Shown: piece after piece, positions 6,139 to 21,208 of the stretch | How the letters are laid out: every line of letters begins with the position of its first letter | Numbering within the stretch: the first letter of the stretch is position 1 | Virus record (IMG/VR): IMGVR_UViG_3300034685_000361 | Location: 1-24,670 of that record | DNA: 24,670 nucleotides | Source: a virus | Reading direction: 5' to 3' (one strand) | Notes under the pieces: model-generated | Told to the model about the DNA's origin: nothing | Seen by the model: only the letters and a program-made list of their open reading frames with translations | The model's database searches: none | Program-made: the position numbers and the translations under genes

Positions 6139-6153
6139 TCTTGGGATATAGGT

Positions 6154-6246: not shown

Positions 6247-6254
6247 GCACATTT

Positions 6255-6276: not shown

Positions 6277-6286
6277 TATTTACACC

Positions 6287-6319
6287 AAAACCAAACCCCC
6301 GGGGTCATTTCCCCGGGGG
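6287..6319 (-). terminator. Rho-independent terminator at the end of the phage late operon
   Basis: Reading leftward, a 9-bp GC stem (6311-6319 with 6296-6304) closes a 6-nt loop and is followed by TTTGGTTTT. The stop codon of the dCMP deaminase sits in the loop. It would end late transcription before the attachment site and shield the host hsd operon. Confidence 0.8.
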
Positions 6320-6897: not shown

Positions 6898-7096
6898 CCT
6901 GCCCGCCTCCCTGCACTACCTTAGCCCGGGCGATGTCCACGGCAGCCTCTCCAAACACGTATCCAAGTACCAGAGCTACAATCTGCCAATAGGCATCCTC
7001 GGGAATACCCAGGCCGAAGCCCTCATTGGCGATGATTAAGACTGCGCCGGCCACGGCCACCCAAAACTTACGGGAACTAATTTTCTGCTTAAGCAT
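6884..7096 (-). CDS. Small phage membrane protein, holin-like
   Basis: A 70-residue protein with two hydrophobic segments, about residues 11-30 (FWVAVAGAVLII) and 37-56 (YWQIVALVLGYVFGEAAVDI), a basic N-terminus and a short hydrophilic tail. It follows the endolysin gene by 19 bases and has a strong AAGGAGATGAG ribosome site before ATG 7096. Its position in the lysis module and its topology suggest a second holin or holin regulator working with the BhlA-like protein upstream. No catalytic motif is present. Family assignment is uncertain. Confidence 0.7.
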   Translation of the reverse strand: MLKQKISSRKFWVAVAGAVLIIANEGFGLGIPEDAYWQIVALVLGYVFGEAAVDIARAKVVQGGGQDAGK

Positions 7097-7115
7097 TTAT
7101 CTCATCTCCTTGGTG

Positions 7116-7865: not shown

Positions 7866-8077
7866 GCTCCCACCTTACCTTTCAACTCTTTTACATCGTC
7901 TCGCACTTCCCCTACATCCCTAGCAAGCGCTTCATATTGTGTGGACAGCCTCTCCAGCGCCGATAAAAGCCGTTCTTCACGCTTGACATTCTCCCGCAGC
8001 ACATAAAAAAGCAGCGCCACGAAGAGCACTGCCCACAGGCCCTGGCTAGCGGCTAGGCGGATGATCTCCTGTTCCAA
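7862..8077 (-). CDS. BhlA/UviB-like holin
   Basis: It forms membrane lesions that release or activate the endolysin. I place the start at TTG 8077, giving a 71-residue product beginning MEQEII. A strong AGGAGGTGGG ribosome site lies just upstream of it, and BhlA-type holins typically begin this way. The ATG at 8098 would put that ribosome site inside the gene. The sequence has one transmembrane helix (GLWAVLFVALLFYVL, about residues 11-25) followed by a charged coiled-coil tail, which is the single-helix BhlA layout. It overlaps the amidase start by 4 bases. Confidence 0.85.
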   Translation of the reverse strand: MEQEIIRLAASQGLWAVLFVALLFYVLRENVKREERLLSALERLSTQYEALARDVGEVRDDVKELKGKVGA

Positions 8078-8109
8078 ACGCCCCACCTCCTGTAACATTC
8101 GGCGGCACG

Positions 8110-8125
8110 TATTTCACGTGAAATA
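8110..8125. promoter_or_regulatory. 16-bp perfect palindrome resembling parS, copy 1
   Basis: TATTTCACGTGAAATA is a perfect palindrome in the 111-bp non-coding gap upstream of the holin. An identical copy lies at 19533-19548. From memory, bacterial parS is TGTTTCACGTGAAACA, a match at 14 of 16 positions, and the Noc-binding site is TATTTCCCGGGAAATA, also 14 of 16. The phage copies take the outer bases of the Noc site and the CACGTG core of parS. A ParB-family ligand is inferred, not shown. Confidence 0.6.
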
Positions 8126-8188
8126 ATCCAGGGCACCCAACCGATCACCGGGAGCCCCAAGTCTTATTACGCATTTAAGTCCAAATAT

Positions 8189-8377
8189 CTATCTAGCCAA
8201 CAGTTTCTCCAGCATCTCCAATACCACGTCCAGCTTGGCGTCTATATCCTCCAGCGCCAACTTGCCCTTCGCCTTCTTGTCGGCGAGGACGGCGAGCTTG
8301 GCCTGGCGCTGCTTCTGTTCCTCCTGCTTTTCGTCTGCGAATACCACCTTGTTGCCCTGTACCTGCTTAGGACGCAT
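8189..8377 (-). CDS. Small charged coiled-coil protein after the tail genes
   Basis: A 62-residue hydrophilic protein. The N-terminal half is rich in Lys, Gln and Glu, and the C-terminal half (about 38-60) is a Leu/Ile/Val heptad helix, consistent with a coiled-coil oligomer. The ATG at 8377 overlaps the preceding gene by 11 bases, and the stop is followed by the non-coding gap with the palindrome. Small proteins of this kind often sit between fibre and lysis genes. Function is not recognised. Confidence 0.7.
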   Translation of the reverse strand: MRPKQVQGNKVVFADEKQEEQKQRQAKLAVLADKKAKGKLALEDIDAKLDVVLEMLEKLLAR

Positions 8378-8705
8378 TGATTACCACCTCGTTCAGTCTC
8401 GTTCTCGTCGGTTCCCCCGCACGAATCCTTATCGCCCCCGGCGTTGTTGCCGTTATCTGGAAAGTTGCCGTATGGGTTACAGGATCAACAGGTACAGTGG
8501 TTATGACGTCATCGGTATCGCTGTGATAGAAAGTTATCTCTGTAGTTCCGACAGGGACTTCGGCGGTTGCAACGGCGGTATCTGCGCCGTCAGCCCTGAT
8601 AACAGGCTTATCCACAGAGAGGACAGCGGGTAAGACATCGTATAGCCATGTTCCTTCGGACTCCACGCAAAACACCTGAAAACCGTTACGCTCTAACCTC
8701 GCCAT
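8367..8705 (-). CDS. Small Ig-like tail-tip protein
   Basis: A 112-residue protein. Residues about 30-105 alternate as beta strands (for example VPVGTTEITFYHSDTDD and THTATFQITATTPGAIRI), in the manner of a bacterial Ig-like domain, of the type often found on phage fibres. Start ATG 8705 overlaps the stop of the glycine-rich gene by one base (TGATG). An alternative GTG three bases earlier is possible. Its place directly after the glycine-rich adhesin suggests a virion or fibre-tip accessory. Function is inferred from fold and context only. Confidence 0.72.
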   Translation of the reverse strand: MARLERNGFQVFCVESEGTWLYDVLPAVLSVDKPVIRADGADTAVATAEVPVGTTEITFYHSDTDDVITTVPVDPVTHTATFQITATTPGAIRIRAGEPTRTRLNEVVINAS

Positions 8706-9568
8706 CACGCCATCACCAACCTGAAAACGACACCGTTACCACCATTACCGCCAGATGAACCCCCATTATACCCGTTGCCACCACGTCCACCAGCGGCGGA
8801 AATTGTCGATATAGAGATTTCTCTAGCAACAGCAATAACTATACCGCCGCCGCCACCACCACCGCCGCCAGCACGGCAATAAGTAGAAGAGGTGCCGCTC
8901 CCAGCATTTCCATCAATGCCGTCAGCTCTAATCGCTCCACTACCCTTGGTAGCGCGTGCGGCTATACACAGCACAAGTCCGCCTCCACTCCCCCCTGTGC
9001 CACCATAAGCGGAGAAACTAGAGTTACTACTACTTGCTCCTCCCCCACCTCCACCACCGCCCTGGTAGGTAAATAGCGTAGAAAGGTCAGGCGGTGCTGC
9101 AAGCAGGTATGCACTTGTCGCAGTAAGCCTCGATGGATCGCTGCTACCGCTCGGGCCTCCTATGGCTGTAGCACCCCCTGCTCCGCCCAAGGCGGAACTG
9201 TAGTAGCCTCCAGCTCCGCCAGGTGCGGCGAAACCGGCCCCGTTTTTGCCAGCGTTCCCGTTGGCAGTACCACTGATGATTGCCCCACTTCCTCCACTTG
9301 CCCCGCGACCTGATGCTGTCAGCAACCCATCGATAACGATGTCAGAACTCGACAGTATTACAATAGGTGACGCACTAACCGAGACCATAACACCGGAGGG
9401 TATGTACACGGAAGAAAATCGGTACACCCTGCCACCAGTCAAAGTGACATCGGCGCTTGGCGAAAACGTACCATCGACGCCGTCATTTACACAAATAAGC
9501 CCAGTCAACAACTTGTACCAGTCTGGAACAAAAGAAATGGGTAAAGTGGATGTCACCTGTACACTCAT
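8705..9568 (-). CDS. Glycine-rich tail-tip protein, putative receptor-binding adhesin
   Basis: A 287-residue protein. The first ~85 residues form a compact beta-like domain (LLTGLICVNDG, then VTLTGGRVYRF) that could attach to the tail. The rest is dominated by glycine: Gly-Gly-x-Gly strings, a run of eight Gly near residue 170 and a run of nine Gly near residue 237. The ending is VVFRLVMA. Such sequences can fold as packed polyglycine II helices, as known for the T-even gp38 tip adhesins. By analogy this would be the host-recognition tip. The DNA for the Gly runs is a CCG/CCA triplet tract (about 8842-8872 and 9040-9062) that can change length in frame. It overlaps both neighbours by 1-4 bases. 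Role is inferred. Confidence 0.7.
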   Translation of the reverse strand: MSVQVTSTLPISFVPDWYKLLTGLICVNDGVDGTFSPSADVTLTGGRVYRFSSVYIPSGVMVSVSASPIVILSSSDIVIDGLLTASGRGASGGSGAIISGTANGNAGKNGAGFAAPGGAGGYYSSALGGAGGATAIGGPSGSSDPSRLTATSAYLLAAPPDLSTLFTYQGGGGGGGGASSSNSSFSAYGGTGGSGGGLVLCIAARATKGSGAIRADGIDGNAGSGTSSTYCRAGGGGGGGGGIVIAVAREISISTISAAGGRGGNGYNGGSSGGNGGNGVVFRLVMA

Positions 9569-9873
9569 AAGCTCAACACCCCGTCTATAAAGATCGTTAG
9601 CGCACCAGCAATACCCTGGTGACCTTTCACACTTTCATTTGCGTAAATATGCACAGGCACACGAATATCGGCTGTGCCGCCAGCAGGAATGCACATGGAA
9701 ACTAGTGGCATAGAATTATTCGACGTATCCACATGGGTCAAAGTCAAAGGTACCGTTGCTGTCGTGCCGTTAACTGCCCAAATGATCAAACCCTCATAGT
9801 CTTTTACCGCCGTAAATAAATTAGCATCAACTGTCCCAGGCTGGCCTTTGTAGAGACGGTCTTTTGCTGCCAC
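9565..9873 (-). CDS. Small tail-fibre-associated protein
   Basis: A 102-residue predicted beta-rich protein (strands such as TATVPLTLTHVD, ADIRVPVHIYA and ALTIFIDGVL) with no catalytic motif. It starts at ATG 9873, next to the stop of the coiled-coil gene upstream, and overlaps the adhesin gene by 4 bases (ATGA). Position and composition suggest a virion structural piece of the fibre or adhesin cassette. No family is recognised. Confidence 0.72.
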   Translation of the reverse strand: MAAKDRLYKGQPGTVDANLFTAVKDYEGLIIWAVNGTTATVPLTLTHVDTSNNSMPLVSMCIPAGGTADIRVPVHIYANESVKGHQGIAGALTIFIDGVLSL

Positions 9874-10077
9874 CTAAATCCCCCCTAACCAGAAGATGAC
9901 GTTTACCTTTTTAAGGTTTGCTGTATCATTTACCAACGTATTAACCGATGTATCCAGCGCAGCTACGGCCTTATCCAGTTCATCTGTCTTATTCTCGTTG
10001 TTATTCAAACGTTCCGCCGATATGCCCGGCGGCCCGTAGTTTACGTATGTCGTTTTCTGGTAGTCACCTAAGGCCAT
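9874..10077 (-). CDS. Short fibre-stem-like coiled-coil protein
   Basis: A 67-residue protein beginning MALGDYQKTTYVN, followed by GISAERLNNNENKTDELDKAV. This opening is common at the N-terminus of Firmicute phage fibre proteins, where it joins the fibre to the baseplate. Here only the anchor and a short heptad helix (about 28-56) remain before the hydrophobic end VNVIFWLGGI. It may be a complete small trimeric linker or the head of a fibre that has lost its shaft, with the following small genes supplying the tip. Confidence 0.72.
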   Translation of the reverse strand: MALGDYQKTTYVNYGPPGISAERLNNNENKTDELDKAVAALDTSVNTLVNDTANLKKVNVIFWLGGI

Positions 10078-10086
10078 CTACATCAC

Positions 10087-10572
10087 CTACCCCCTGGAGA
10101 TCGTATCCGTCCGCCGGATAGTCCAGCTTTCAGTCGAACTTTTCTGCCTTGAATACAAAACACGGGCAATCATTATGCCCGTGTTTGCTGTGGCCGTAGC
10201 CTCCGCCCCGGCAAACCAGCCGATTTCTTCGCACTTGAAATTATTAGCTTCCGTGTCGGCGATGTAAAGCTCTGTATAGAGCTTCCCCGGCGTTACCGGG
10301 TCAGGATTTTGGCTCGTCACCTGCTTGCGGAATTGTTCAGCGACCAGTTGAGTTTGGCTGGGATCTGGTGCAGTAGTACCGTTACCCAGAGCGACGTATT
10401 TTATTTTGCCGTCGGTAATTGTTCCCCGCAGAATGTCGCGGATCATGTTCAGCCCGGCATCCGTGATCAGGTTCGGCCGGACTTCATCCCGCCAAAGTTC
10501 ACGGCCCTGGGCGTCATGGGCTATGATTTCCCACTGACCAAGCCAGGATGTTATTGCTTTATCGTTCATCAT
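10087..10572 (-). CDS. Tail-fibre or baseplate-associated structural protein
   Basis: A 161-residue protein of a type often found just after the baseplate hub in Firmicute siphoviruses. It has an N-terminal region with LWRDEVRPNLITDAGLNMIRD, then YVALGNGTTAPDPSQTQLVAE, and a C-terminal strand-rich part (EIGWFAG, then GIMIARVLYS). The ALG-G-G-TAP motif recurs in fibre and baseplate proteins. Start ATG 10572 has GGAGGAAAGC directly upstream, with a second ATG next to it. No enzyme motif is seen. Exact virion position unknown. Confidence 0.72.
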   Translation of the reverse strand: MMNDKAITSWLGQWEIIAHDAQGRELWRDEVRPNLITDAGLNMIRDILRGTITDGKIKYVALGNGTTAPDPSQTQLVAEQFRKQVTSQNPDPVTPGKLYTELYIADTEANNFKCEEIGWFAGAEATATANTGIMIARVLYSRQKSSTESWTIRRTDTISRG

Positions 10573-10587
10573 GCTTTCCTCCTTACA

Positions 10588-11646
10588 TTACATTGGATAT
10601 AGGTCTTCCCGCGGGTAAAGATTTTCCGAGGGCAACAAACTGTATTGACTGACATCCAACTCATCGCTCCAGGCTGTGCTGTCACTTAATTCCACCGGCG
10701 GCGGTGAGGTGAAGGCCTCCGCCCAACCCACAACCTCTCCCACGGCCAACGGTGGCACCCTTGCCGCTGTTTCACCCCACCGCCACCATCCTGTTGCCTC
10801 CACTGGTGGCGGCAATTCGGCCACCTCCAGCCAGGCCCAGGGCTCTTCTTTTGCAATATATTTCTCCACCGGTCCTTCTTCGTCGCGCAACGTAGCCTTT
10901 TCCAGAGCAAACAACCGCTGCGCAAGGTCCTTCAGTATGTGCGACACGTCACGCTCCGGACTTTCAAGCTGCAGCTTGATGTCTACCCGGGCCTGGCCAG
11001 GGATGCTGTCGTATATAACCTCTTTAATTTCCAAGTAGGTATCAATATTCAGATCGGGAATTTGCACCAGGATATATTCACCTGGCTTGTACACGCCGGT
11101 GAACGGTTCAATGCTGCCTGTGATTACCGGCTGGCTGTATTTATACAGGTGTCGAAGGCCTAACTCCAGGGCCAGTTCCTTGTCGTCGGTGTCTACCCGG
11201 AGGATATCCTCAAAGACCCCGTACCGCTTCTGGCTTTCTGGTTCCTCCAGGAGAATTTTAATCGGGTATTCGTACCGGTAAGAAATCGTTCCAGTGCCGC
11301 TTGTGCACAAGTCGGGGATAAGCAACTTTTCAGAAGCATTCAGCAGAAAATCGTGTGTGCCGGGCTGGTCAATGTTCTGTAAACCGATTGTTTTTTGCTG
11401 GCCGTCCACGATTACCGTTACCGGATCCCGGGGGGAGTAGTGCAACGGTATCGGTTCTGTCCCCACGGTAATAGGCTGAGTATATATGTCAGACAGGGCC
11501 TTACCGCCTTTAACCCAGAGGCGATTCACCAGCTGCCGGCTGTCCGGGGTGAGTTTCGCGCTACCTTTCTTGTAGGTGCCGGGCTTCAGCACGTACTTGC
11601 TCAGCCGGCTGCCGGCCGGGAAAAAGTGTATAGCTACTACGGACAC
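10588..11646 (-). CDS. Baseplate hub protein, C-terminal half, with Trp/Pro-Pro repeat tail
   Basis: A 352-residue protein that appears to be the second part of a gp27/XkdQ-like hub. Its opening VVAIHFFPAGSRLSKYV is what normally follows the GYEWFI(D/S) segment of such hubs, and that segment ends the globular part of the upstream gene. Residues about 160-245 (PGEYILVQIPDLNID, then YLEIKEVIYD) match hub beta domains. Residues 272-326 are a repeat with Trp at 272, 290, 308 and 326, each followed by an acidic residue and a Pro-Pro. The protein ends ENLYPREDLYPM. Start is GTG 11646, with AAGGTGAG upstream and 11 bases after the previous stop, in a different frame, so this is a true gene boundary. 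Confidence 0.78.
   Translation of the reverse strand: MSVVAIHFFPAGSRLSKYVLKPGTYKKGSAKLTPDSRQLVNRLWVKGGKALSDIYTQPITVGTEPIPLHYSPRDPVTVIVDGQQKTIGLQNIDQPGTHDFLLNASEKLLIPDLCTSGTGTISYRYEYPIKILLEEPESQKRYGVFEDILRVDTDDKELALELGLRHLYKYSQPVITGSIEPFTGVYKPGEYILVQIPDLNIDTYLEIKEVIYDSIPGQARVDIKLQLESPERDVSHILKDLAQRLFALEKATLRDEEGPVEKYIAKEEPWAWLEVAELPPPVEATGWWRWGETAARVPPLAVGEVVGWAEAFTSPPPVELSDSTAWSDELDVSQYSLLPSENLYPREDLYPM
10671..10835 (-). repeat. 54-bp (18-residue) Trp/Pro-Pro repeats in the hub C-terminus
   Basis: Four tryptophans at exactly 18-residue spacing (272, 290, 308, 326 of the hub C-terminal protein) mark units of the form W-x-E-x(4-5)-PP-x(8-9), the last one partial. Two related units close the upstream hub half (Trp 178 and 197). 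The repeat is clear at protein level and divergent in DNA. Confidence 0.7.
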
Positions 11647-11657
11647 GTTCTCACCTT

Positions 11658-12332
11658 CTACCCTGGATATAGCGTTTCGGAAGGGTACAAATCTTCAGCC
11701 GGCCGCGGCGGGTAGAATATACGTTGCTGTACCGTTTCCTCCCACCCTATGCCTTCATCTGTCGCCAGGGCCGGCGGGACTAATTCCACCAGTTCGCTCC
11801 AGCCGGAGCCTTCGCCCTGGGGAATTTCCTCGGGTAGCGGTTCGGAAATAAACCACTCGTACCCGGCCAGCTTGCACAACTTTTCCATGCAGTCAAACAA
11901 AAATTCATCTCGGAAGCGAATAGTGATTACCTTGTCGCAGGGCACAATGCTGTCCCGGTTTATCCAGGGCATATATTTTGCGAAAAGGTCATTCACGATG
12001 TCGCTGATACGCCAGTTCTCATAGTTTTCCGTGACCACGATTTTCTGCGTCCGGCCGGTGTAACACATGCCGTCTATCTGTATTGCTTTCACCGGGCCGT
12101 CTACAGACTTAGCCGGGTTGAGCACCCACCCCCGGAAGATGTGATCGCCCTGGCTAATCCACACGTCACTGCCCACGGGAAAGGCGTCTATTAGTTCACC
12201 GGACACATCCGGCAACACTAAAGTAAATGACCCGGACCGCGTTGTCGCGGACAGGGTCACTGTGCAGCGATCGTAAACTTTAATCTCCCGGGGGTTACCG
12301 CCGGGAGGTGTGATGATGATTTTTGTACCCAT
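11658..12332 (-). CDS. Baseplate hub protein, N-terminal half
   Basis: A 224-residue protein resembling the N-terminal domains of siphovirus/PBSX-type hub proteins (gp27-like). It has beta strands up to about residue 60, then DVWISQGDHIFRGWVL, then the helical ISDIVNDLFAKY segment and FLFDCMEKLCKLAGYEWFI (about 143-162). A normal hub would continue from here. Instead residues 165-224 form a tail with two Trp/Pro-Pro units (Trp 178 and 197) and the ending EDLYPSETLYPG, much like the end of the next gene. Start ATG 12332 overlaps the tape-measure stop by one base (TGATG). The two hub halves would have to associate in the virion. Confidence 0.75.
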   Translation of the reverse strand: MGTKIIITPPGGNPREIKVYDRCTVTLSATTRSGSFTLVLPDVSGELIDAFPVGSDVWISQGDHIFRGWVLNPAKSVDGPVKAIQIDGMCYTGRTQKIVVTENYENWRISDIVNDLFAKYMPWINRDSIVPCDKVITIRFRDEFLFDCMEKLCKLAGYEWFISEPLPEEIPQGEGSGWSELVELVPPALATDEGIGWEETVQQRIFYPPRPAEDLYPSETLYPG

Positions 12333-15300
12333 CACCACACACCCCCGGTAGCCAGGCCGTATTTACTCGCAATGCGCCTGGATACAATGTCGGCGAATTC
12401 CTCCATGCCACGGCTGCCAACAATGGTACCGTGGTTTTCTATATGGATGTGGAGTTCACTGCGCAGAGGCTGCGGGGAAGCCAGAACAGTTAACCCCTTA
12501 ACTGCTTCCAGCAGGGCATTTGTCATCATTGGCTGCAACTGAACGAGGGGTAATACCGCCTCCGGACCAGCTTCCCCTATAACTGCCGTAATTGCCTTTC
12601 TAACTATACCCCCGGATGCCATATAAGCGGGGGGATAATTGTAATTACCATGTTCATACTCATCTTCAGACCCGTAATAACGATACGCAGGCGCATTGCT
12701 AAATGGCCCATACCAACCAGGCCCCTGATAGCCATTTCTTGGATCTAGGTATGTTGTACCAGAATTAGAACCAGAATTACCAGTATCTGAACCAAAATCA
12801 TTAGAGCCAGGTTCCGTTGTACCAATAAATTCACCAGTATCTGTGCGGAAGTACAGTTTAAGGCTAGGATCGGCATACGGATAGATATAAAACCATTCCC
12901 ATCCTTCTTCCTGTGCTTTCTGGAGATATTCATAATAAGTATCCCAAAATCCTTCCAAGCTGCCACCTGCATTTACCCACAATTGTTCAGGTTCTGTGAG
13001 GGCCTGCGTAGGAGGATTGTAAATAGGGGGAGTGTAAATCGGTCTTGTAATGCTATCTATTGCGTCTTGTACAGCACTCTTACCGCTGTTAATTGCGTCT
13101 ACAAGGCTCGATATAGCATCTTGCCCTATCCTACCGAATTCATTAGGTAAAGTGCTCAATGAGCTTATCATACTTTGCGAAATTCCTGACATTGCATTTT
13201 TGACGTTTACTTCCCCGTCTTTAATGCCAACCGCTAACCCTTCGGCAACATTCTGGCCTATTTCACGCATAACCCCGGAAGGCGAGGATATGCGGAACAA
13301 AGCCTTGATGTGTGATTTTATGCCTTCTATCCATCCCGTCACCTGACTGCGCAACCAGCCAGCCATATTTTGTATGCCTGACCAGAACCCCTCAACGAGA
13401 TTCTTTCCCCAGGATATTGCATTTTGTGCCAGCTGCGAAAACGTACTTATGAGCCAGGATTTGATATTGTTCCAAACTTCCTGAGTCCTGGTTTGGATAT
13501 TGCTCCAAACATTCGAAATAGTATCCTTTATCTGCTTAAATTTGGTGTTAACTTCATTTGCTATACTCTGGAAGAGCCCGGACAGGAACGTTTTAATGCT
13601 GTTCCAGGTTTCCTGAGTCTTGGTCTCAATGCTACTCCACGTGGTCGCCAACCAATCCCTGATCGACGTCCAGACGTTGGTAAAAGCGGTCTTGATGCTA
13701 GTAAGGGTATCGTTAAAGAATTTCTTTATGTCATTCCAAATCTTTTTCGTCTCATCTTCGATTTTAGACCATAAATCGGTGAGGAAATCTTTTATTGCAT
13801 CCCAAATGGCTTCAGTTTTAGCCTTGATTTCGTCCCAGTTCTCTATCACCAGGGCCACCACAAGCCCTACCGGCCCGGTAATAGCAGCCAAAAGCAGCGG
13901 CCACCAGTCTACCAGGAATTGTTTGATTGCGTTCCAAATCTCCGAAGTTGCTGCCTGAATCGCAGTCCAGGCGTTGGTCACGGCCACCCTGACGGACTCA
14001 ACCGCGGTGGCGATGCTGGCTTTAATGCCCTCCCAGACCGTAGTCAGCGCCGCCCACAACTCCTGCGTCTTGGCCTTCACCACGTCCCAGTGTGTGTACA
14101 ACGCTACGCCGGCGGCAATCAAAGCGGTAATGGCCGTAATAACCAAGCCAATAGGGTTCGCCCGTAAAGCCGCGTTAAACAGTGTTTGTGCCGCAGCGGC
14201 TGCCCTGGCCACGGCGGTGTAGGTTTCTTTTGCAATAGTGACTGCTTTTACCGTCGCACTGTAAGCGGCCCAAGCTGCCGCCGTTACACCTATAACAGTC
14301 CCAATTGCAGTTAAGCCGTTCTGCACTGATAGAAGCGACGATGCAAATTCGGTCATTGTAGCTTTTGCCGCTCCGAAGTCTCCATTGATTACCTGCGCCA
14401 CTGCACGAATTACCGGTTCAACAGCTCGTAGTGCGCCGACCAGCACCTGAGCAATGACCTGGCTGATCTGGTTCAGGACGTTTAAGAACACCGGCCATAC
14501 CGTGCTGTTTGCCTGTGCTACGGCGGCAAATACCGGCTCCAGGGCCATCTTTAGGTCAGCCCATATCTTGGTTAGTACCGGACCAACTGTCTCCCAATTC
14601 TGTTTGATAACCAACGCAGCAATGCCAAAAGCTGTCAGCATCGGGTTAAGTCGCACAAAGTTGACCACCATACCTGGCAATGACCGTGCAAAGGTAAGCA
14701 TAGCAGGACCAAGGCCAGCGATAACGCTGGGCAGGCCGAATATGGCGTTTCTAAACAGTTCCAGCTGTGTCCTGAGTGCTACCACTTGGGGCGAAAGAAC
14801 CGCTATGCCCCCGGTAGACATCGCCACGATTGACTGTGCCAAACCATGGAAGAGCGCCCGATGCTGGATGAGAAGACCGGCCACCGGGCTGGCGGCGGCT
14901 ACGAAACCGACAGTGGCAGTAGTAGCCATACCCAGGTAGCCAATGAAAGATGCTATCCCTGGATTGTTACGCAAAAACTCGGTGGCAGCCTGGGTCGCGT
15001 TTTTAAATCCATCAGCAATTTTGGTTAGTGTCGGTTCTACGGCCTGGTATAGTTCAACCAGTACCGCCTTCGCCCCGCGCAACGCCTCGCCAAACCGCCC
15101 CATGGCTCCCTTGTCAAGCGCCGCGTTCATCTGCTCAAATGCGCGGGCACCCTCGGTACCGGCGGCAGTGAGGTTCTTCCACTCGCTTCTGTGGGTAATA
15201 ACGTCTTCTGTAGCCTTTTCGATGTCGCCCTGGTACTTCTTCAGGGCCAGAGTCATGATGTCCGCGGCCTGCTGCTGTTCCACGCCCAGTTTCTTCATCA

Positions 15301-16351
15301 CCAGGCGCACGCTATCTATAGCCTGGGTCGGTTTTACTCCCCATGCATCGGCAAAGGCAAAGGCCATTTCGGCTGATTGCCGCAGGGTCTCTTTGCCCTC
15401 GTTATACTGGTTTACAAGGTGCGAAAATACTTCGCCAACTTCGCCGTACTTCTTACCGGTGGTTGTCGCCGTGTCAACCATCAGATCCTTAAATTCGCCC
15501 ATGGTGGCATTAGATTCCAGGGTTTGCGCCTGGAATCTGTTCCAGGCATTCTCTGCCTCCGAAGAAAATTTGGCAACAGCCACGTTTACGCCAGCCATCG
15601 CAACGGCAGCCATGCCGGCGTACATGCCGATCTGCTGGTATATCATCGGCAACTGCGCTATTTTTGCCTTTTGGGCGGCAGTGGTATCGGCTGCGCCCAC
15701 GATTTTCTTCGCGGCGCCGTCGATGATTTCATAGGTTTTATTGGCTACGGCGGCAAGGTCCTGGTTAATAAAGCCGGCGATCTGCGCCTTTGCCCTGGCT
15801 ACCTGGTCGGTGATAGGCTTAACAAAGACGTCCTTACCGAAAATTTTCTGGACTTCGTAGCCGAAGGCTTCTGCAAATTTCTTAATCGGCTCAGCATCGG
15901 CAAGCTGCTGCTTATAACGTGCCAGGGCTGCTTCGGCCTTTTTGATTTCGTCTACAAGTTCGTCAGCCCGGCCGCTCTCCTTCATCTGCTTCAGGGCCTT
16001 CTCCGTAAGGGCTATTTCTTCTTTCAACCTTGTCATCCGGACATTTGCCAGGTTGTAGAGCTGGGCCTCAAGGGCTTTCGCCTCGGCCTTTGTCTGGCCG
16101 AAGCCGAGGCGCGATAATTCGGCCCTGGTTTGCCGGATGGAACTCTCTAACTGGCTGAAGGCATGTGTGACCTGTACGGGGTTCGCGGCTTCAGCGAAAC
16201 GCTTGAAAGCAACTTCCGAATTCGCCAGGCGGGTGTTCATGTTTTGGATAACTTTTTCGGTACCCTGCAATGCCGCCTGGGCAGCGGCCAGGCTGCGCCG
16301 GAATTCCCGGTCATCAAGAGCCATCCTTGCGTAAAGTTCGCCAACTTGCAT
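12332..16351 (-). CDS. Tail tape measure protein
   Basis: It sets tail length and is likely ejected with the DNA. The start ATG 16351 (MQVGELYARM) follows GGCGGGTGGG; an in-frame codon ten residues earlier has no better site. The 1339 residues begin with coiled coils (about 10-230) and contain hydrophobic segments (about 470-560 and 690-740). At about 800-985 there are Trp-containing helical repeats of the type W..I(K/R)..L....W..I. The family motif SSPSGVMREIGQNVAEGLAVGI lies near 1045, and the GEAGPEAVLPL motif lies near the end. Residues about 1100-1245 are an unusual Tyr/Gly/Trp-rich insert in AT-richer DNA. By the usual scaling of about 0.15 nm per residue, the tail would be near 200 nm long (inference). 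Confidence 0.93.
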   Translation of the reverse strand: MQVGELYARMALDDREFRRSLAAAQAALQGTEKVIQNMNTRLANSEVAFKRFAEAANPVQVTHAFSQLESSIRQTRAELSRLGFGQTKAEAKALEAQLYNLANVRMTRLKEEIALTEKALKQMKESGRADELVDEIKKAEAALARYKQQLADAEPIKKFAEAFGYEVQKIFGKDVFVKPITDQVARAKAQIAGFINQDLAAVANKTYEIIDGAAKKIVGAADTTAAQKAKIAQLPMIYQQIGMYAGMAAVAMAGVNVAVAKFSSEAENAWNRFQAQTLESNATMGEFKDLMVDTATTTGKKYGEVGEVFSHLVNQYNEGKETLRQSAEMAFAFADAWGVKPTQAIDSVRLVMKKLGVEQQQAADIMTLALKKYQGDIEKATEDVITHRSEWKNLTAAGTEGARAFEQMNAALDKGAMGRFGEALRGAKAVLVELYQAVEPTLTKIADGFKNATQAATEFLRNNPGIASFIGYLGMATTATVGFVAAASPVAGLLIQHRALFHGLAQSIVAMSTGGIAVLSPQVVALRTQLELFRNAIFGLPSVIAGLGPAMLTFARSLPGMVVNFVRLNPMLTAFGIAALVIKQNWETVGPVLTKIWADLKMALEPVFAAVAQANSTVWPVFLNVLNQISQVIAQVLVGALRAVEPVIRAVAQVINGDFGAAKATMTEFASSLLSVQNGLTAIGTVIGVTAAAWAAYSATVKAVTIAKETYTAVARAAAAAQTLFNAALRANPIGLVITAITALIAAGVALYTHWDVVKAKTQELWAALTTVWEGIKASIATAVESVRVAVTNAWTAIQAATSEIWNAIKQFLVDWWPLLLAAITGPVGLVVALVIENWDEIKAKTEAIWDAIKDFLTDLWSKIEDETKKIWNDIKKFFNDTLTSIKTAFTNVWTSIRDWLATTWSSIETKTQETWNSIKTFLSGLFQSIANEVNTKFKQIKDTISNVWSNIQTRTQEVWNNIKSWLISTFSQLAQNAISWGKNLVEGFWSGIQNMAGWLRSQVTGWIEGIKSHIKALFRISSPSGVMREIGQNVAEGLAVGIKDGEVNVKNAMSGISQSMISSLSTLPNEFGRIGQDAISSLVDAINSGKSAVQDAIDSITRPIYTPPIYNPPTQALTEPEQLWVNAGGSLEGFWDTYYEYLQKAQEEGWEWFYIYPYADPSLKLYFRTDTGEFIGTTEPGSNDFGSDTGNSGSNSGTTYLDPRNGYQGPGWYGPFSNAPAYRYYGSEDEYEHGNYNYPPAYMASGGIVRKAITAVIGEAGPEAVLPLVQLQPMMTNALLEAVKGLTVLASPQPLRSELHIHIENHGTIVGSRGMEEFADIVSRRIASKYGLATGGVW

Positions 16352-16364
16352 GTTCCCACCCGCC

Positions 16365-16852
16365 TTAGAGAATTTGGTCAATATAGCCCTGCTTGACGTT
16401 TTTCTGCTTCTCGGTTACGTTAGCCACTATAACGTAATCCCAGAACATTTCCAGATCAGTATCGTCGATATCATTAGGTGTCCAGCCGAAACTACGCGAC
16501 AACTCCAAAAAATAATAAATTACGAGCTGGTAGCCGGACAGGTTTACCCTGTCGGCTTCTGTGCGTTTGGGAGCTGGTTAATCTTCATCGTTACAATTTG
16601 ACCTATCCAGGACGATATCTCGTTAAAAATTGGCAGGAAATCTTCCAGGCCGAGGTTTTCCTCAATTGCCTGCGGTGTTACGTCTGGATGATTAAACGCC
16701 TCGGCTATCAGCCGCAGCATTTCGTCCAATGCCTGCTGTGTGTCCATTTTGTCCCGCACTTCCTGGAATTTTACAAACTGCCGCCACATTTTAACTTTAG
16801 GGCTCGGAGCTGTGTAAGTTTTACCGTTCAAGGTGATAGTCGGTGCGTTCAT
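16365..16852 (-). CDS. Tail assembly chaperone G-T fusion made by -1 ribosomal frameshift
   Basis: Predicted 162-residue product: 96 codons of the upstream chaperone, a -1 slip at CCCAAAC (16565-16571), then 66 residues in the new frame ending at TAA 16365-16367. The extension includes YYFLELSRSFGWTPNDIDD and ends GYIDQIL, the familiar form of gpT-like chaperone tails. It has no start codon of its own at a useful position. In lambda and relatives, the G and GT proteins coat the tape measure and recruit the major tail protein, and their ratio is fixed by slippage. The stop lies 13 bases before the tape-measure start. No in-frame route exists without the frameshift. Confidence 0.88.
16532..16571 (-). 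promoter_or_regulatory. Programmed -1 frameshift signal: slippery heptamer plus hairpin
   Basis: The heptamer C CCA AAC (16565-16571) is in the zero-frame phase required for X XXY YYZ slippage. After a 7-nt spacer, a hairpin at 16532-16557 has a 10-bp stem (AGCC plus GACAGG, pairing with CCTGTC plus GGCT, one bulged C) and a GTAAA loop. The zero-frame stop codon TAA is in the loop. Confidence 0.85.
16544..16852 (-). CDS. Tail assembly chaperone, short (G) form
   Basis: A 102-residue zero-frame product: a short N-terminal beta segment (TITLNGKTYTA) followed by an all-helical acidic domain, typical of Firmicute phage tail chaperones. The ATG at 16852 has a CGGGAGGT ribosome site. It lies between the major tail protein and the tape measure, as in lambda-like phages. 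The last six residues after the slip site differ from the fusion form. It would be the abundant product, with the G-T fusion made at low frequency. Confidence 0.9.
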   Translation of the reverse strand: MNAPTITLNGKTYTAPSPKVKMWRQFVKFQEVRDKMDTQQALDEMLRLIAEAFNHPDVTPQAIEENLGLEDFLPIFNEISSWIGQIVTMKINQLPNAQKPTG

Positions 16853-16876
16853 TTGATCTACCTCCCGAGATTATAT

Positions 16877-16898
16877 GGGGCGGCTTTTATGCCGCCCC
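16877..16898 (-). terminator. Strong hairpin after the major tail protein gene (attenuator or processing site)
   Basis: An 8-bp perfect GC stem (GGGGCGGC / GCCGCCCC) with an ATAAAA loop begins 12 bases after the major tail protein stop. The following bases are ATATAATC, so there is no T-run and full termination is unlikely. A partial attenuator or 3' RNA-stabilising element is more likely. Confidence 0.6.
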
Positions 16899-16909
16899 GG
16901 TAATCAAGT

Positions 16910-17794
16910 TTAAGCCGTAGTAAAGTTGATCACATACGGGCTGGCCAGGGCGTTGCCCGCCAGGTCCTTGACGTTCGTTGTAACCACGAAAATGTACTGC
17001 GTAGCAGCCGCCAGGTTGGCCGCCGGGTCGAAGGTGACTACAGTGTGGTCTGCATTGAGCGACAGGGTACCGGCTACCGGCGCACCGTCGGCCGTCATCA
17101 AAATGAAGTTGGCCGGCGTGACGGTGCTGGCCTGAATGGCCTCGCTGAAGGTTATCACGATGTTGGCGCTGACGGACACGCCGGTAGCCGCATCAGCCGG
17201 GGTGCTGGACAGCACGGTTGGAGGTGTGGTGTCAGCGGCGCCTTCCACGGCAGCGAACCAGTTAGCGCCGATACTCGGCACGTAATCCGGATGGTCCTCG
17301 TCCGCCTGCTTAATCCAGGCATCATCGAAAATGCGCTTCAGGAAAATACCCTCAATCTTCGGGGTTTGAAAGTTTACTTTGTCGTCCTTTGTTTTGTGTT
17401 CCAGCTTGGGAAGCTGGAATTTGCCTTTGAGCAGCCAAACGTACCGATATTTTCCGTTTGTCTTTAAGGATTTGAAGCCAATTGCGACATAAGGTGCCGT
17501 ATCGGTGGATTTCCGTACCATTACACCGCCAGAAATAGTATGACCAAGTAGTGCGGCCTGTACTTCCAGTGGCAGGTCCTTAACTTCGAGGCTAAGTTTG
17601 ATTTCCCCCATGTTGCTGAAGGTTTCCGCAGGCCCATCGTCCGCGAAAAGAGTACCACTGGAAGGATTAGGGTCAATGTCGGCGGTTATCACCCCGGGGA
17701 TGGCCACGGGCGCCTGATAGGTCACACCTGTTTCGTCGTCTTTGGTAAGGATTGCGTAATGTAAGTCACGTAAACCAACTTGAACTCCAGCCAT
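16910..17794 (-). CDS. Major tail protein with fused C-terminal Ig-like domain
   Basis: It forms the hexameric rings of the siphovirus tail tube. Residues 1-185 are the phi13-type tube domain (MAGVQVGLRDLHYAILTKD, then GTLFADDGPAETFSNMG at 47-63, then KYRYVWLLKGKF). Residues 190-294 (from DTTPPTVLSSTPADAATGV) form a bacterial Ig-like domain of the SbsA/Big_5 type that would project from the tail surface. In SPP1 a comparable extension is added to only some subunits by frameshifting; here it is fused directly, so every subunit should carry it. Start ATG 17794 has a strong AAGGAGGAAT site. A hairpin follows the gene. Confidence 0.93.
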   Translation of the reverse strand: MAGVQVGLRDLHYAILTKDDETGVTYQAPVAIPGVITADIDPNPSSGTLFADDGPAETFSNMGEIKLSLEVKDLPLEVQAALLGHTISGGVMVRKSTDTAPYVAIGFKSLKTNGKYRYVWLLKGKFQLPKLEHKTKDDKVNFQTPKIEGIFLKRIFDDAWIKQADEDHPDYVPSIGANWFAAVEGAADTTPPTVLSSTPADAATGVSVSANIVITFSEAIQASTVTPANFILMTADGAPVAGTLSLNADHTVVTFDPAANLAAATQYIFVVTTNVKDLAGNALASPYVINFTTA

Positions 17795-17807
17795 TTGGCA
17801 TTCCTCC

Positions 17808-18206
17808 TTAATCTCTTGTGGTTGCTACCGCCAAATTAAACACAAAAACCGTCCGCCCGCTGGCGTCGGTTTCAAGTTTGAACGGCGTTTGCAGGGCCTG
17901 GATTATGGCCACACGGTCTGGTGTAAGCTGTACCCCTTCGCCCCGGGTATCAGCCCGGTCCAGCAGGTTGAATATGGCCCATGCCTTTGCCCGGGCGGTA
18001 GCGTAACTTTTATTGCGTACCAGAACCTGTACCCGCCGGTCAAGGGCATCAACGCCGGTGGTAGTCGGTAGACCGGCATATTCAAAAATACTGATCAGAT
18101 TGTCAGGTTGGTCTGGCCGGGTGTCCAAAAAAATATCCGTCCCTATGGCTGCGGCCTGGGAGTTGGCAATGAGATACAATGCAATGTCCCTGGTTAGTTC
18201 AGCAAT
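17808..18206 (-). CDS. Tail terminator protein, probable ATT start codon
   Basis: A minor capsid/tail terminator-like protein that would cap the tail tube and join it to the head. I start it at ATT 18206, giving 132 residues beginning MAELTRDIALYLIANS. This frame is closed by a stop (TAA) just before the ATT. The strong ribosome site AGGGGGTGGT ends 4 bases upstream, and the family usually begins with this helix. No ATG, GTG or TTG occurs in frame until TTG 18179, which would remove the first nine residues of the helix and has no ribosome site. The gene is 2-13 bases from its neighbours. Family identity comes from position and helix-strand pattern (TDIFLD, LQTPFKLETD). Confidence 0.78.
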   Translation of the reverse strand: MAELTRDIALYLIANSQAAAIGTDIFLDTRPDQPDNLISIFEYAGLPTTTGVDALDRRVQVLVRNKSYATARAKAWAIFNLLDRADTRGEGVQLTPDRVAIIQALQTPFKLETDASGRTVFVFNLAVATTRD

Positions 18207-18218
18207 TTATACCACCCC

Positions 18219-18581
18219 CTACGGCGTATTTCGCAAGGCAGCCCGCACCCGCTCTTCTACCAACCGGGTGACGGCAGGTAGATTGCGGTTAAACGGATCC
18301 TCCAGGTACTTGGCCTTGCCTCCCCGGGGGTGGTTAAAGTCCAAGCGTTCATGCTGGACAACGGCATACGGTGTGTTGAATGAAATGTATACCGCCCACT
18401 CAGCGGGCGCGTCGGTCACGGTCCCGGACCGGCGCAGGGTACCGGTATCAATCGGCGTCTCGTCGATAGCTTCGGTCAGGATATGCTCTGCCCCGTCATG
18501 CAGGGCCTGCAGTGCCGCCTCGCGGGCTATTTTCGTTGCCAGCTCACCACGCCAGGTAAAGCTTCCTACCTCTTTCGGCAT
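18219..18581 (-). CDS. HK97 gp10/SPP1 gp17-like tail completion protein
   Basis: A 120-residue protein beginning MPKEVGSFTW at ATG 18581, which overlaps the preceding stop by one base (TGATG). An apparent longer frame upstream is antisense or shifted coding of the neighbouring gene. Features of the HK97-gp10 family are present: an N-terminal helix ending in DETPIDTGTLRRSGTV (about 40-56), strands AEWAVYISFNTPYAVVQHE, and a C-terminal helix. Such proteins sit at the head-tail interface and may help the tail terminator assemble. Neighbour order (head closure before, tail terminator after) agrees. Confidence 0.88.
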   Translation of the reverse strand: MPKEVGSFTWRGELATKIAREAALQALHDGAEHILTEAIDETPIDTGTLRRSGTVTDAPAEWAVYISFNTPYAVVQHERLDFNHPRGGKAKYLEDPFNRNLPAVTRLVEERVRAALRNTP

Positions 18582-18874
18582 CAGCAGGCCACCTCCCGGA
18601 AAAGTATGCTTCCATCCAACATGGTCGCATCCAGGACAGAGATCACCGGCCACTCCCGGCCGGCATATACAAGTGTATCCCCAGGCTGGACAGGTTCGGT
18701 GGTGTATACCAGGCTTTCACTGACCACTTCCTGCCCCTGCCGGTCGCGGACCAAGCGGCGCTTTGAGATCCAGCGGACCTGGATTTCCTTTTCTTCTACC
18801 ACAGGTTCGCCGTATTCGTTGGTTCCGGTGGTGCGCCGCCAGATGGCCCGGTGACAAAGGTATAACTCAATCAT
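18581..18874 (-). CDS. Head closure protein, SPP1 gp16-like
   Basis: A 97-residue beta-rich protein starting at ATG 18874, in an ATGA overlap with the connector gene. The pattern YLCHRAIWRRTTGTNEYGEPVVEE, then a strand-rich core, then QPGDTLVYAGREWPVISV, is characteristic of small head-tail joining proteins, where the tyrosine-rich hairpin closes the DNA channel. Position between the gp15-like connector and the gp17-like protein fits exactly. A longer reading starting at 19072 would run through the connector gene in another frame and is rejected. Confidence 0.85.
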   Translation of the reverse strand: MIELYLCHRAIWRRTTGTNEYGEPVVEEKEIQVRWISKRRLVRDRQGQEVVSESLVYTTEPVQPGDTLVYAGREWPVISVLDATMLDGSILFREVAC

Positions 18875-19299
18875 ACGATAGCCACGCTCCCCGCCAGCCA
18901 GGGCCGCAGCAACTCCCTGGCCTCCTGGCTCAACAGGCCCCGGCCAGCGCCCGGGCGGTACTGCTCGTTCAGACCACTGGGGCCGCCGATACTGAAAACG
19001 GTCACGCCTTCCTGCTGGAGTTTCCGGCGCTGGCTGTTGCCCCGTTCCAGTAAGGCCAGGGCCTCTTCGCAACAGGCATCCTTCACGGCTTGGGGAACTT
19101 CGATATCCGGGTAGCGTGGGAAGGCCAGAGCCTGGGCAGGGTCGGTTTTGCGTCCGGCGATTGGTTGCCGGTCAATGGCCCGGGTGGCCATCTCCAGAGC
19201 TTTTATTTTGTCCGGATCTGCAGCATTAGCCCAGGCGTCAGAGAAAAGACGGGCCGAAAAGTAGGCCTGGGCCTCTTCCAGTGTCACGTAGGCGGGCAT
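18871..19299 (-). CDS. Head-tail connector protein, SPP1 gp15-like
   Basis: A 142-residue mostly helical protein: YVTLEEAQAYFSARL, then WANAADPDKIKALEMATRAID, PRYPDIEVPQAVKDACCEEALALL, and a C-terminal segment leading to LLRPWLAG. These are the landmarks of the gp15/YqbG-type adaptor family, which binds below the portal. The ATG at 19299 has GGTGACTAATC upstream, and the gene lies 2 bases after the small Glu/Pro-rich gene. It directly precedes the head closure gene in an ATGA overlap. Confidence 0.9.
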   Translation of the reverse strand: MPAYVTLEEAQAYFSARLFSDAWANAADPDKIKALEMATRAIDRQPIAGRKTDPAQALAFPRYPDIEVPQAVKDACCEEALALLERGNSQRRKLQQEGVTVFSIGGPSGLNEQYRPGAGRGLLSQEARELLRPWLAGSVAIV

Positions 19300-19301
19300 G
19301 A

Positions 19302-19511
19302 TTAGTCACCGCCTTTTTTCTTACCTTTCTTTGGCTCAACAGGTTCCGGTTCTTCTGCCGGTTCCTGTACCCCTGCCGGTGCGGCTGCCTGCGGTTCCGG
19401 TTCTTCTGCCTGAGCGGAGGGGGTTTGCTGTAGCTCCTGTTCTCTTTGCCGTTCTTCTTCCGCTTTTCTAGCCAGTTCACGCCGGCGCCGGTTGAATGCG
19501 GTTACACTCAT
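19302..19511 (-). CDS. Small basic-acidic disordered protein after the capsid gene
   Basis: A 69-residue protein with three parts: a basic helix (FNRRRRELARKAEEERQREQ), a Pro/Glu/Ala-rich low-complexity middle (about 29-58) and a Lys-rich end (KKGKKKGGD). Proteins of this shape often stand between the major capsid and connector genes of Firmicute siphoviruses, and their function is generally not known. It is probably intrinsically disordered. Start ATG 19511 follows the non-coding gap with the palindrome. Confidence 0.75.
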   Translation of the reverse strand: MSVTAFNRRRRELARKAEEERQREQELQQTPSAQAEEPEPQAAAPAGVQEPAEEPEPVEPKKGKKKGGD

Positions 19512-19532
19512 TTAAACCACCAGCTTTCCCAG

Positions 19533-19548
19533 TATTTCACGTGAAATA
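19533..19548. promoter_or_regulatory. 16-bp perfect palindrome resembling parS, copy 2
   Basis: TATTTCACGTGAAATA, identical to 8110-8125, lies in the 68-bp gap after the major capsid gene, 6 bases from the capsid hairpin. The two copies are 11.4 kb apart and both fall in rare non-coding gaps of an otherwise densely packed operon. That argues for a retained binding site rather than chance. Confidence 0.6.
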
Positions 19549-19554
19549 TTTGTT

Positions 19555-19576
19555 GAGGCGGGCTAAAACCCGCCTC
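19555..19576 (-). terminator. Hairpin directly after the major capsid gene
   Basis: A perfect 8-bp stem GAGGCGGG / CCCGCCTC with a TTTTAG loop begins 3 bases after the capsid stop codon. The sequence after it (AACAAATATTT) has no clean T-run, so a leaky attenuator or mRNA 3'-end stabiliser is more likely than a full terminator. It parallels the hairpin after the major tail protein gene. Confidence 0.6.
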
Positions 19577-19579
19577 CTT

Positions 19580-20542
19580 TTAAATCTTGTGGATAAACGC
19601 AACAATCCGGATGGCCTTGTTCTCGTACACCCTGGTCCAGTTAGCACCGTTCTCCAACTCCGCGTTCGTCGGGCTGGAGCCGGCAGGAGTGCCCACCCAC
19701 TTGACACCCCTGGGGTGCAGGATGAACGTCCGCCGGTTAATCAGGTAGTCCTCACCGGCCAGGGTGTCCCGATCGGTCTCAGTCGGGACGAAACCTACAG
19801 GATTACCCTCACCGTAAGCAATAGCACCTTCGCCGAAGATGTAAGTAGTGTAAATACCATTCACGGTATCTACAGGGCAGCCATCGTCAACAATAACCCG
19901 CTTACCCATATAAGTCGGCACCTGCGGGCTGGCGGTGGACGGCTGGATGTACTGGATCAGGTTCTGCTTTGCCAGGGCCGCCTCTACAGCAGAGTGCATG
20001 ACCACGGCAGTAAGCTGGTCTTTGGCATCACCCAGGAGCTGGACCGCATCAATGAAGCTGGAAGCAGAAATCTTCTCAGCCCCGCCAGTCAGGCCAGAGA
20101 TGTCGAGCTTGTTGCCGGCCATGCTGGCAGAAGCAAATACACCTTTGAGAATCGAAATCAGCGTAGCCTGGTACCGCCGCGCCCAGTAACCGGCCACCAG
20201 GTCTCCGATTACCCGCATCGGGTCGTCGCCGGCAAGGTTGGCCGCTAGGTCGTTAGCACCCCAGGCTTTACCCCGGCGCAGGATTACAGCCACGTCCTGG
20301 CCGGTGCCAATCTTATCGGGGGTAAGGGCTGTACTGTCGGACAGTACCTCATCCGCTCCAGTCAGGTCAGTCCAGTAAGGCATATTGATGGTCTTGGCTC
20401 CAGAGCTGGCCAGCCGATCAAATTCTGCGGTCCTCTGAGCAATTCCGCTCTGAAAAATAGCGGCCAATTCCATCGTCCGCTGAACAACGTAAGGGTTGAA
20501 TACTTCAGGTACGATTACGTCCGCAATCTTAGTAACAGCCAT
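19580..20542 (-). CDS. Major capsid (coat) protein, HK97-fold
   Basis: A 320-residue shell protein that follows the scaffold gene. The order is typical of the SPP1 gp13/coat group. It has an N-terminal arm (IADVIVPEVFNPYVVQRTMELA), then KTINMPYWTDLTGADEVLSDSTALTP (about 50-75), and then the long spine helix with DDPMRVIGDLVAGYWARRYQ. The A-domain contains VVMHSAVEAALAKQNLI and MGKRVIVDDGCPV. The C-terminus (RTFILHPRGVKWVG) is a P-domain strand. No maturation protease gene is visible nearby, and the protein has no long N-terminal delta domain, consistent with use of a separate scaffold. Ribosome site AGGAGGATGATGG precedes ATG 20542. Confidence 0.93.
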   Translation of the reverse strand: MAVTKIADVIVPEVFNPYVVQRTMELAAIFQSGIAQRTAEFDRLASSGAKTINMPYWTDLTGADEVLSDSTALTPDKIGTGQDVAVILRRGKAWGANDLAANLAGDDPMRVIGDLVAGYWARRYQATLISILKGVFASASMAGNKLDISGLTGGAEKISASSFIDAVQLLGDAKDQLTAVVMHSAVEAALAKQNLIQYIQPSTASPQVPTYMGKRVIVDDGCPVDTVNGIYTTYIFGEGAIAYGEGNPVGFVPTETDRDTLAGEDYLINRRTFILHPRGVKWVGTPAGSSPTNAELENGANWTRVYENKAIRIVAFIHKI

Positions 20543-20557
20543 CGTCCATCATCCTCC

Positions 20558-21160: not shown

Positions 21161-21208
21161 CAGTAGTTATCCTCCTTCCGGGTTTTTGCCGGGTTCCCGT
21201 ACCCGTGA

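Follow-up and report, generated by a model that had tools for sequence, protein, structure and literature searches.

A hybrid parS/Noc-type palindrome in phage late genes as a predicted loading site for an orphan phage ParB

Which protein reads a 16-bp palindrome that resembles both parS and the Noc-binding site (NBS) and is planted among phage late genes? Two copies of such a palindrome, TATTTCACGTGAAATA, are found in a 24,670-nucleotide (nt) stretch of DNA (positions 1 to 24,670 of the IMG/VR record IMGVR_UViG_3300034685_000361; hereinafter, the window), which is a fragment of a virus (phage). An earlier note on this DNA had proposed that a ParB-family protein, encoded either by the host or by the phage, binds these sites. 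Our overall conclusion, to which we assign a probability of about 0.8, is that the palindromes are nucleation sites for the phage's own orphan ParB clamp, for which no ParA was detected, that this clamp is distinct from the host ParB and Noc, and that control of late genes is its favored role. Judging from the sequence, it is very likely that the two palindromes in the window nucleate a phage-encoded ParB; the regulatory role, the weakest step of the argument, we consider slightly less than an even bet.

The earlier note's description of the sites holds. The two 16-bp copies are identical and lie exactly at the coordinates it gave (Table 1), both fall into non-coding gaps of the late operon, with co-directional minus-strand late genes on either side, and a direct comparison shows two differences from parS and two from the Noc site. 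A scan of all 24,670 nt for other copies turned up no further match even with up to three mismatches. Dinucleotide shuffles of the window yielded a mean of 0.02 matches, and none of the 100 shuffles contained two.

A candidate protein for these sites is encoded just beyond the window. Most of the window is 100% identical to another contig, IMGVR_UViG_3300022514_000001 (hereinafter, G009), which extends past the window end and carries the terminase, the RusA resolvase (rusA) and parB, with a gene for a replisome organizer nearby. Because G009 and the window are 100% identical over an overlap of 18.5 kb, this ParB can be assigned to the same phage, so that the ParB/Noc homolog which, as the note advised, was to be sought in the rest of the phage is indeed there, as an orphan ParB. 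The protein, which consists of 519 amino acids (aa) from its likely start, matches PF02195 (ParB_N; 98.7 bits) and PF17762 (HTH_ParB; 93.2 bits), both over the cut-off, as well as, by sequence, the Spo0J and Noc structures in the PDB. Its structural model is confident for residues ~20-290 and poor for the rest; in a Foldseek comparison with ParB/Noc folds, it aligned with the Noc DNA-binding domain 6y93 (TM score 0.86 by target length). Residues G76, E77, R78, R79, R81, N111 and R114 are invariant in 13 sequences; they belong to the GERRxR and ENLQR regions, which we take to be the motifs of the cytidine triphosphate (CTP) pocket, and these predicted pocket motifs are conserved in the phage ParB. 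Behind the helix-turn-helix (HTH) domain, four cysteines in residues 239-265, invariant in 8 aligned sequences, suggest a metal-binding knuckle that leads into a long helix, in place of the canonical ParB dimerization domain. Among named phages and plasmids, only distant ParBs were found, for example, that of a Thermaerobacter plasmid (55% over 140 aa).

The association between the site and ParB recurs in other viruses. The exact 16-mer was found in 43 IMG/VR stretches on 34 contigs, and one arbitrary control palindrome was equally frequent (51 stretches, 51 contigs), so raw frequency was dropped as evidence. What is exceptional is the clustering of the copies and the company of ParB_N. Two to four exact copies are present in 8 of the 34 contigs compared to 1 of the 51 control contigs (the one with two copies; Fisher p = 0.002), and ParB_N is encoded in 10 of the 34 exact-site records (956 kb) compared to none of 50 control records, which amount to 941 kb with one control contig excluded (p = 5e-5). 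In eight of these ten ParBs, a copy of the site with 0-2 mismatches is located within the gene, in the same place; the remaining two records are G018, with a one-mismatch copy 113 bp upstream of the ParB open reading frame (ORF), and G013, which encodes a short ParB_N protein. Relatives of the window phage identified by their capsid genes lack the site: it was not found within two mismatches in any of 69 other capsid-bearing loci, and in the eight of these that were chosen for a ParB_N search, the closest with capsids 90-91% identical, both ParB_N (0/8) and the site (0/8) are missing.

The copy inside parB (Table 1) encodes (N)ISR(E/G/K)I just behind the HTH, and the same anatomy, along with further copies in gaps, is seen in other phages. 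This internal copy is kept in phages with a GC content between 41 and 70%. We compared the palindrome with the synonymous codon use of its own gene in 17 ParB genes that were picked for having the motif (third-position GC 0.42-0.87): it is kept better than this codon use predicts in 14 of them (p < 0.05 each), with a combined Fisher p of ~2e-19 when the genes are treated as independent. Two phages with Noc-type sites (L151 and L185) use TCC CGG in place of TCA CGT for the same amino acids, a paired synonymous change that alters both half-sites together and keeps the palindrome. These patterns of codon use indicate that selection acts on the DNA of the in-gene site.

The residues of ParB that govern specificity follow the type of site. 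We denote them by four-letter codes, such as QRDS, for positions 173, 179, 184 and 201 in the numbering of the Caulobacter ParB. According to the accessible part of a study of ParB and Noc specificity (PMC7383237), Q173 pairs with A at position 1 and R201 with C at position 6, K (or R) being permissive at 179 or 184; the engineered variants QKAG, QTKG and QKKG change their preference to a site that combines parS and NBS features; and variants of dual specificity mostly carry T or S at 201. The window phage combines a QRDS ParB with a site whose seventh base is A; this pair differs from the Noc-NBS set, namely, Q173, K at 179 or 184, R201 and the site TATTTCCCGGGAAATA. Among the 25 phage and prophage rows that we chose for a table of specificity, Q173 with G or S at 201 goes with the hybrid site, Q with K, R or T at 201 with Noc-type sites, and R with G201 with parS-type sites. 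The first class comprises 19 of the 25 rows, and 16 of the 19 have a site with at most one mismatch to the hybrid 16-mer somewhere in the record or locus. The other classes are exemplified by L151 (QRDK), with three exact NBS; L185 (QRDR), with two copies of ATTTCCCGGGAAAT; L176 (QRKT), with five NBS-like sites; and L152 (RASG), with CGTTTCACGTGAAACA and a ParA. No clear site was recognized in L148 and L153, which have T at 201. In a tree of 59 rows, in which the deeper forks are weak, 15 rows with Q and G or S (L132-L142, L144, L145, L147, L433) group together (97/93), apart from chromosomal ParB and from the 13 Noc rows, which form a group of their own (98/88); L146 falls outside the Q+G/S group.

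Two records show how the site varies. In G047 (IMGVR_UViG_3300025010_000007), two copies of TATTCCACGTGGAATA (e.g., 10920 and 27291) form a perfect palindrome and three mixed copies are present elsewhere, which is a further drift of the site. G054 (IMGVR_UViG_2936425318_000002) contains five NBS-like sites with a variable center (TATTTCCCAGGAAATA type; Table 1) and a phage ParB with T at 201.

In bacteria, both the hybrid residues and the site are scarce. Among 93 ParB/Noc-type proteins from the best 80 loci of a longer match list, 76 have R+G, 13 have Q+R, 4 have other pairs, and none has Q with G or S. The 16-mer was found in none of 25 bacterial genomes, in one (G160) of 398 genomes sampled from the same phylum as a Bacillota genome, and in one of 20 genomes of the order of G160, again G160 itself, which carries a related prophage. 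The possibility raised in the earlier note that the 16-mer is frequent all over the chromosome is not borne out in these genomes. The host of the window phage was not found; one scan of bacterial genome contigs gave mainly ordinary ParB and Noc genes.

The G160 genome encodes three ParB-type systems side by side. The prophage contig encodes a ParB (QRKG) whose gene contains a one-mismatch copy of the site, and it has two exact copies in gaps; the Noc-like gene (residues read by eye) contains an exact NBS; and the host ParB is accompanied by a parS-type site by parA. At one end of the prophage contig, there is an AzlC-like gene (recognized by eye), which suggests integration. A separate exact hybrid site (L434), next to a hairpin, is located outside the prophage contig, at C67:4211; the distance to the hicA ORF of a downstream hicA-hicB toxin-antitoxin pair is 88 bp, and the region is 96% identical over 51 bp to the viral contig L077. 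This site is perhaps a chromosomal target or a phage remnant.

Outside parB, the sites are concentrated in intergenic gaps. In ten records, 19 of the 21 exact sites of this kind lie wholly outside called ORFs, one is at the edge of a small ORF, and one, in G024, is inside an ORF that is perhaps an artifact; 4.7% of the 16-bp windows in these records are ORF-free. This tally was compiled by hand and leaves out G018 and G013, where the exact sites are in ORFs, as well as G026, G011, G043 and others, which have no exact site outside parB. The neighbors of the gap sites include genes for the terminase small subunit, capsid, head decoration, head-tail adaptor, a repressor-like protein, integrase and endolysin. 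The sites of a record are dispersed over ~9-31 kb, and 38-51 bp around some of them are common to different contigs. The next start codon is often 7-50 bp away, which we do not use as evidence because the gaps are short anyway.

In the window, site 1 occupies the gap between a small ORF and the BhlA holin/endolysin module, 11 bp upstream of the longest ORF for the BhlA-type holin; site 2 separates the major capsid gene from the gene that follows, whose ATG is 21 bp further downstream (Table 1). We considered the site as part of a promoter and dropped this idea, a sigma-70-like match being found at neither window site. Beyond the holins, at 6305-6742, there is a dCMP deaminase gene, and the flank at the lysis end (70-5861) reads, from translations alone, like type I restriction-modification genes hsdR, hsdS and hsdM. 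At the opposite end, where the window cuts into the terminase gene, the last 125 bases (24546-24670) are unlike G009, likely an assembly end.

Table 1. Coordinates of the sites and of adjacent and related features; positions are those of the window unless another contig is named
Feature	Position	Strand	Remark
Site 1, hybrid parS/NBS-type palindrome TATTTCACGTGAAATA	8110-8125		
Site 2, hybrid parS/NBS-type palindrome TATTTCACGTGAAATA	19533-19548		
Third site, within the parB coding sequence	G009 22346-22361		one mismatch
parB	G009 21302-22861	-	
Stretch 100% identical to IMGVR_UViG_3300022514_000001 (G009) 1-18534	6012-24545		
Endolysin	7116-7865	-	lysis module starts after site 1
BhlA-type holin gene, downstream of site 1	7862-8098	-	true start may be TTG further in
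Small ORF upstream of site 1	8189-8377	-	family match none
Small gene 21 bp downstream of site 2	19302-19511	-	family match none
GC-rich hairpin just after the capsid gene	19555-19576		6 bp from site 2
Major capsid gene just upstream of site 2	19580-20542	-	SPP1 coat protein, 52.5% identical
NBS-like sites in G054	G054 3873, 13534, 17625, 26195, 30748		

The usual partner of ParB was seldom detected. ParA (PF13614) was detected over the cut-off in 2 of 28 records, many of them fragments, with a weak sub-threshold match in G024; both ParA-positive records have a parS-type site and the ParA-binding motif. This motif, (L/F/I)G(K/R)G(L/F/I), was found in none of the 18 phage ParBs tested, but L152 and L162 have it. 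Segregation by ParA is disfavored because ParA went undetected with the single Pfam model that was used. Membrane placement also seems disfavored, because several members start ParB_N almost at the first residue: in L119, L120, L121 and L122, the domain begins within ~10 residues of the likely start. In the ParB of the window phage, ~20 residues of low model confidence precede the domain. A tyrosine integrase is encoded in 16 of the 28 records and in 9 of the 16 hybrid-type records, so that many of these phages are probably integrating ones; none was found in G009, itself a fragment.

At the sequence level, then, we have the sites, the ParB, their co-occurrence and co-variation, the codon evidence from within the gene, and no detected ParA; that the phage ParB binds the sites, loads with CTP and slides, we infer. 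In the mechanism we propose, Q173, together with the permissive R179, would read A at the second base of the site, and with no R at 201, A would be kept at the seventh base, the outcome being a third specificity, distinct from those of the host ParB (parS) and the host Noc (NBS). The orphan ParB, a clamp with the CTPase fold, would be loaded across the phage genome, usually at two to five sites, one of them within parB and most others in gaps between genes; it would close around the DNA with CTP and slide over the neighboring genes, covering kilobases around each site. Such spreading is to be expected from the behavior of ParB, Noc, VirB and KorB, which are loaded at a site on the DNA and then move along it with CTP. 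The favored function would be control of late transcription in the manner of VirB, BisD and KorB, either repressive or anti-silencing. Because ParA was undetected and most sites are in gaps beside late genes, the clamp most probably controls late transcription or prophage chromatin; ParA-less partition and packaging-related DNA organization are other possibilities. In a broader and tentative version, for which the odds are a little below even, integrating phages would possess a private, ParA-less clamp of a third specificity (A1/A6), a natural equivalent of the laboratory intermediates between ParB and Noc, which would keep it separate from the host ParB and Noc of the same cell. Loaded mostly every 4-15 kb, at the gap sites and at the one within parB, the clamps would cover the entire prophage, and late genes, packaging or genome placement would be switched together.

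Several observations weigh against this scheme. The parB gene is not within the window itself, and its in-gene site in this phage carries a mismatch. ParB_N is missing from 24 of the 34 exact-site records, including three of the eight with multiple copies (G010, G017 and G024), and many of the single-copy matches in IMG/VR are probably due to chance. Among the ParBs with Q and G or S, the only version in L147 is an in-gene one with three mismatches, and the scanned stretches of L150 and L160, both with S201, contain no hybrid site. The codon test, taken gene by gene, is not significant for L137, L144 and L185. The exact sites of G018 and G013 are within called ORFs of 498 and 123 nt, respectively, and a one-mismatch site of G010 is within a 246-nt ORF. 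By analogy with the engineered variants, the S201 ParB of the window phage may be less exclusive than its G201 relatives; because laboratory variants of dual specificity mostly have T or S at this position, strict separation from parS and NBS is not assured. A sigma-70-like promoter overlaps neither window site, leaving a role in transcription without direct support, and the ParA search covered one model. Finally, adjacency to hairpins varied with the test. With the site masked, hairpins adjoined 3 of 19 gaps compared to 22 of 134 (p = 0.64), and a second test gave 3 of 17 compared to 32 of 610 (p = 0.06), where the parB-site filter seems to drop several gap sites. In a third test, with an explicit list, 8 of 21 sites in multi-site or ParB records have a GC hairpin at a distance of up to 12 bp, compared to 51 of 610 pseudo-sites (p = 0.0003), with 6 of 23 for sites in other records and 1 of 29 for control palindromes; all these tests were exploratory, with thresholds varied after looking. 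Separately, six single-site contigs without ParB_N (L079, L088, L098, L102, L105 and L112) have a GC hairpin no more than 12 bp from the site, and some of these may be real sites in phage fragments.

The most serious competitor, although an unlikely one, is ParA-less partition, whereby ParB and its sites would hold a plasmid-like prophage, or position replicating phage DNA, and would not regulate genes. ParB-site pairs are classically centromeres, G009 shows no integrase, and ParA-less maintenance is discussed, in the accessible text of PMC10286716, for a staphylococcal phage and plasmid pSK1. The frequent tyrosine integrases, the dispersed, unclustered arrangement of the sites, and the apparent integration of the G160 prophage argue against it. 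Recruitment of the host ParB or Noc, by which the prophage would borrow segregation, SMC loading or membrane placement, is suggested by the resemblance of the site to both consensus sequences and is highly improbable nonetheless: the hybrid residue pair is absent from the bacterial proteins sampled, almost all bacterial genomes searched lack the site, the Noc and ParB of G160 have their own NBS and parS-type site whereas its hybrid sites are in the prophage, save for the copy on another contig, and in the capsid relatives tested, ParB_N and the site are missing together. Of the two options in the earlier note, the phage-encoded one is thus strengthened by a ParB from the same phage with hybrid residues and a third site in its gene, all of this at the level of sequence, and the host-encoded one loses ground.

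Two further explanations dispense with ParB altogether. The palindrome could be an RNA element, part of a terminator or a processing signal, given that UAUUUC-ACGU-GAAAUA can be drawn by eye as a six-pair stem with a tetraloop and that GC hairpins are enriched nearby in the third, exploratory test above. We give this possibility the least credence of all, considering that the stem letters are nearly invariant while the central letters track the ParB residues, that a copy is also embedded in the parB coding sequence, and that the element is accompanied by a ParB with matching specificity residues. Alternatively, the sites might be operators of another phage regulator, or recombination-prone boundary sequences common to phages, with a coincidental link to ParB. 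The 38-51 bp identities between contigs and the placement next to genes of different modules are compatible with this, but such an origin would leave unexplained both the preservation of the parB copy across the range of GC content and the presence of NBS, exact or nearly so, where the phage ParB carries K or R at 201; we regard it as very unlikely.

The hybrid specificity class is known to us only in the form of engineered ParB-Noc intermediates. By sequence, it can now be seen in nature, and in one bacterial genome, three ParB-type proteins are each paired with a 16-mer of their own; a family of phage ParBs with predicted cognate sites is also at hand. A phage could run a private version of the bacterial chromosome-organizing system, and its ParB-site pairs could serve as extra DNA-labeling tags. 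In the open-access literature, we found no paper on phage ParB sites in late operons, none on cognate site networks for orphan ParBs of integrating phages, and none on a natural protein of hybrid specificity. ParB folds in phages, and orphan ParBs, are already known: a survey of orphan ParB-like proteins on mobile elements (PNAS 2025, PMC12704722) describes, in its accessible part, phage and prophage ParB-CTPase folds without a ParA-binding motif, and that part gives no cognate DNA sites for the phage orphans. The authors of a 2023 study on a staphylococcal phage state, in the available text, that to their knowledge no characterized phage contains only a ParB gene (PMC10286716).

Among the known systems, chromosomal ParABS (Spo0J/ParB-parS) shares with the phage system the ParB_N CTPase fold joined to HTH_ParB and a 16-bp palindrome of the same architecture. 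In B. subtilis, the ParABS site may lie within or beside the partition genes, an arrangement also seen by parA in G160. Unlike ParABS, the phage system comes without a detected ParA or ParA-binding motif, has Q/R/x/G-S in place of R/x/x/G at the specificity positions, a site whose second base is A rather than G, and cysteines in the C-terminal half of its ParB; it is phage-encoded, with sites scattered over late genes. Noc-NBS is similar in several respects: the protein, a ParB relative, lacks the ParA motif and has Q at 173, the second base of its site is A, the DNA carries a number of dispersed sites, and one is within its own gene (the NBS inside noc in G160). Unlike Noc, the phage ParB lacks R at 201, the center of its site is parS-like, several members have little room for a membrane helix ahead of ParB_N, and the family forms a separate branch of the tree. 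VirB-virS of Shigella, BisD of ICEclc and KorB of RK2 are, like the predicted phage protein, ParB-type CTP clamps on mobile elements and, in the source text available, regulate transcription from DNA sites rather than perform classical partition; they belong to other lineages and hosts, and none is a phage late-operon network, and regulation by the phage protein is a prediction. The engineered QKAG, QTKG and QKKG proteins, as given in the accessible part of PMC7383237, have the same combination of Q173, a permissive basic residue, no R201 and a mixed parS/NBS site, whereas the phage combination is a natural one that comes with its site; its basic residue is R179, and position 201 is occupied by S or G. 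The stoperators of cluster A mycobacteriophages, described in the accessible text of PMC9283540, likewise distribute many repressor sites across a phage genome; unlike the ParB-type palindromes of the present phages, stoperators are asymmetric and bound by a monomeric repressor.

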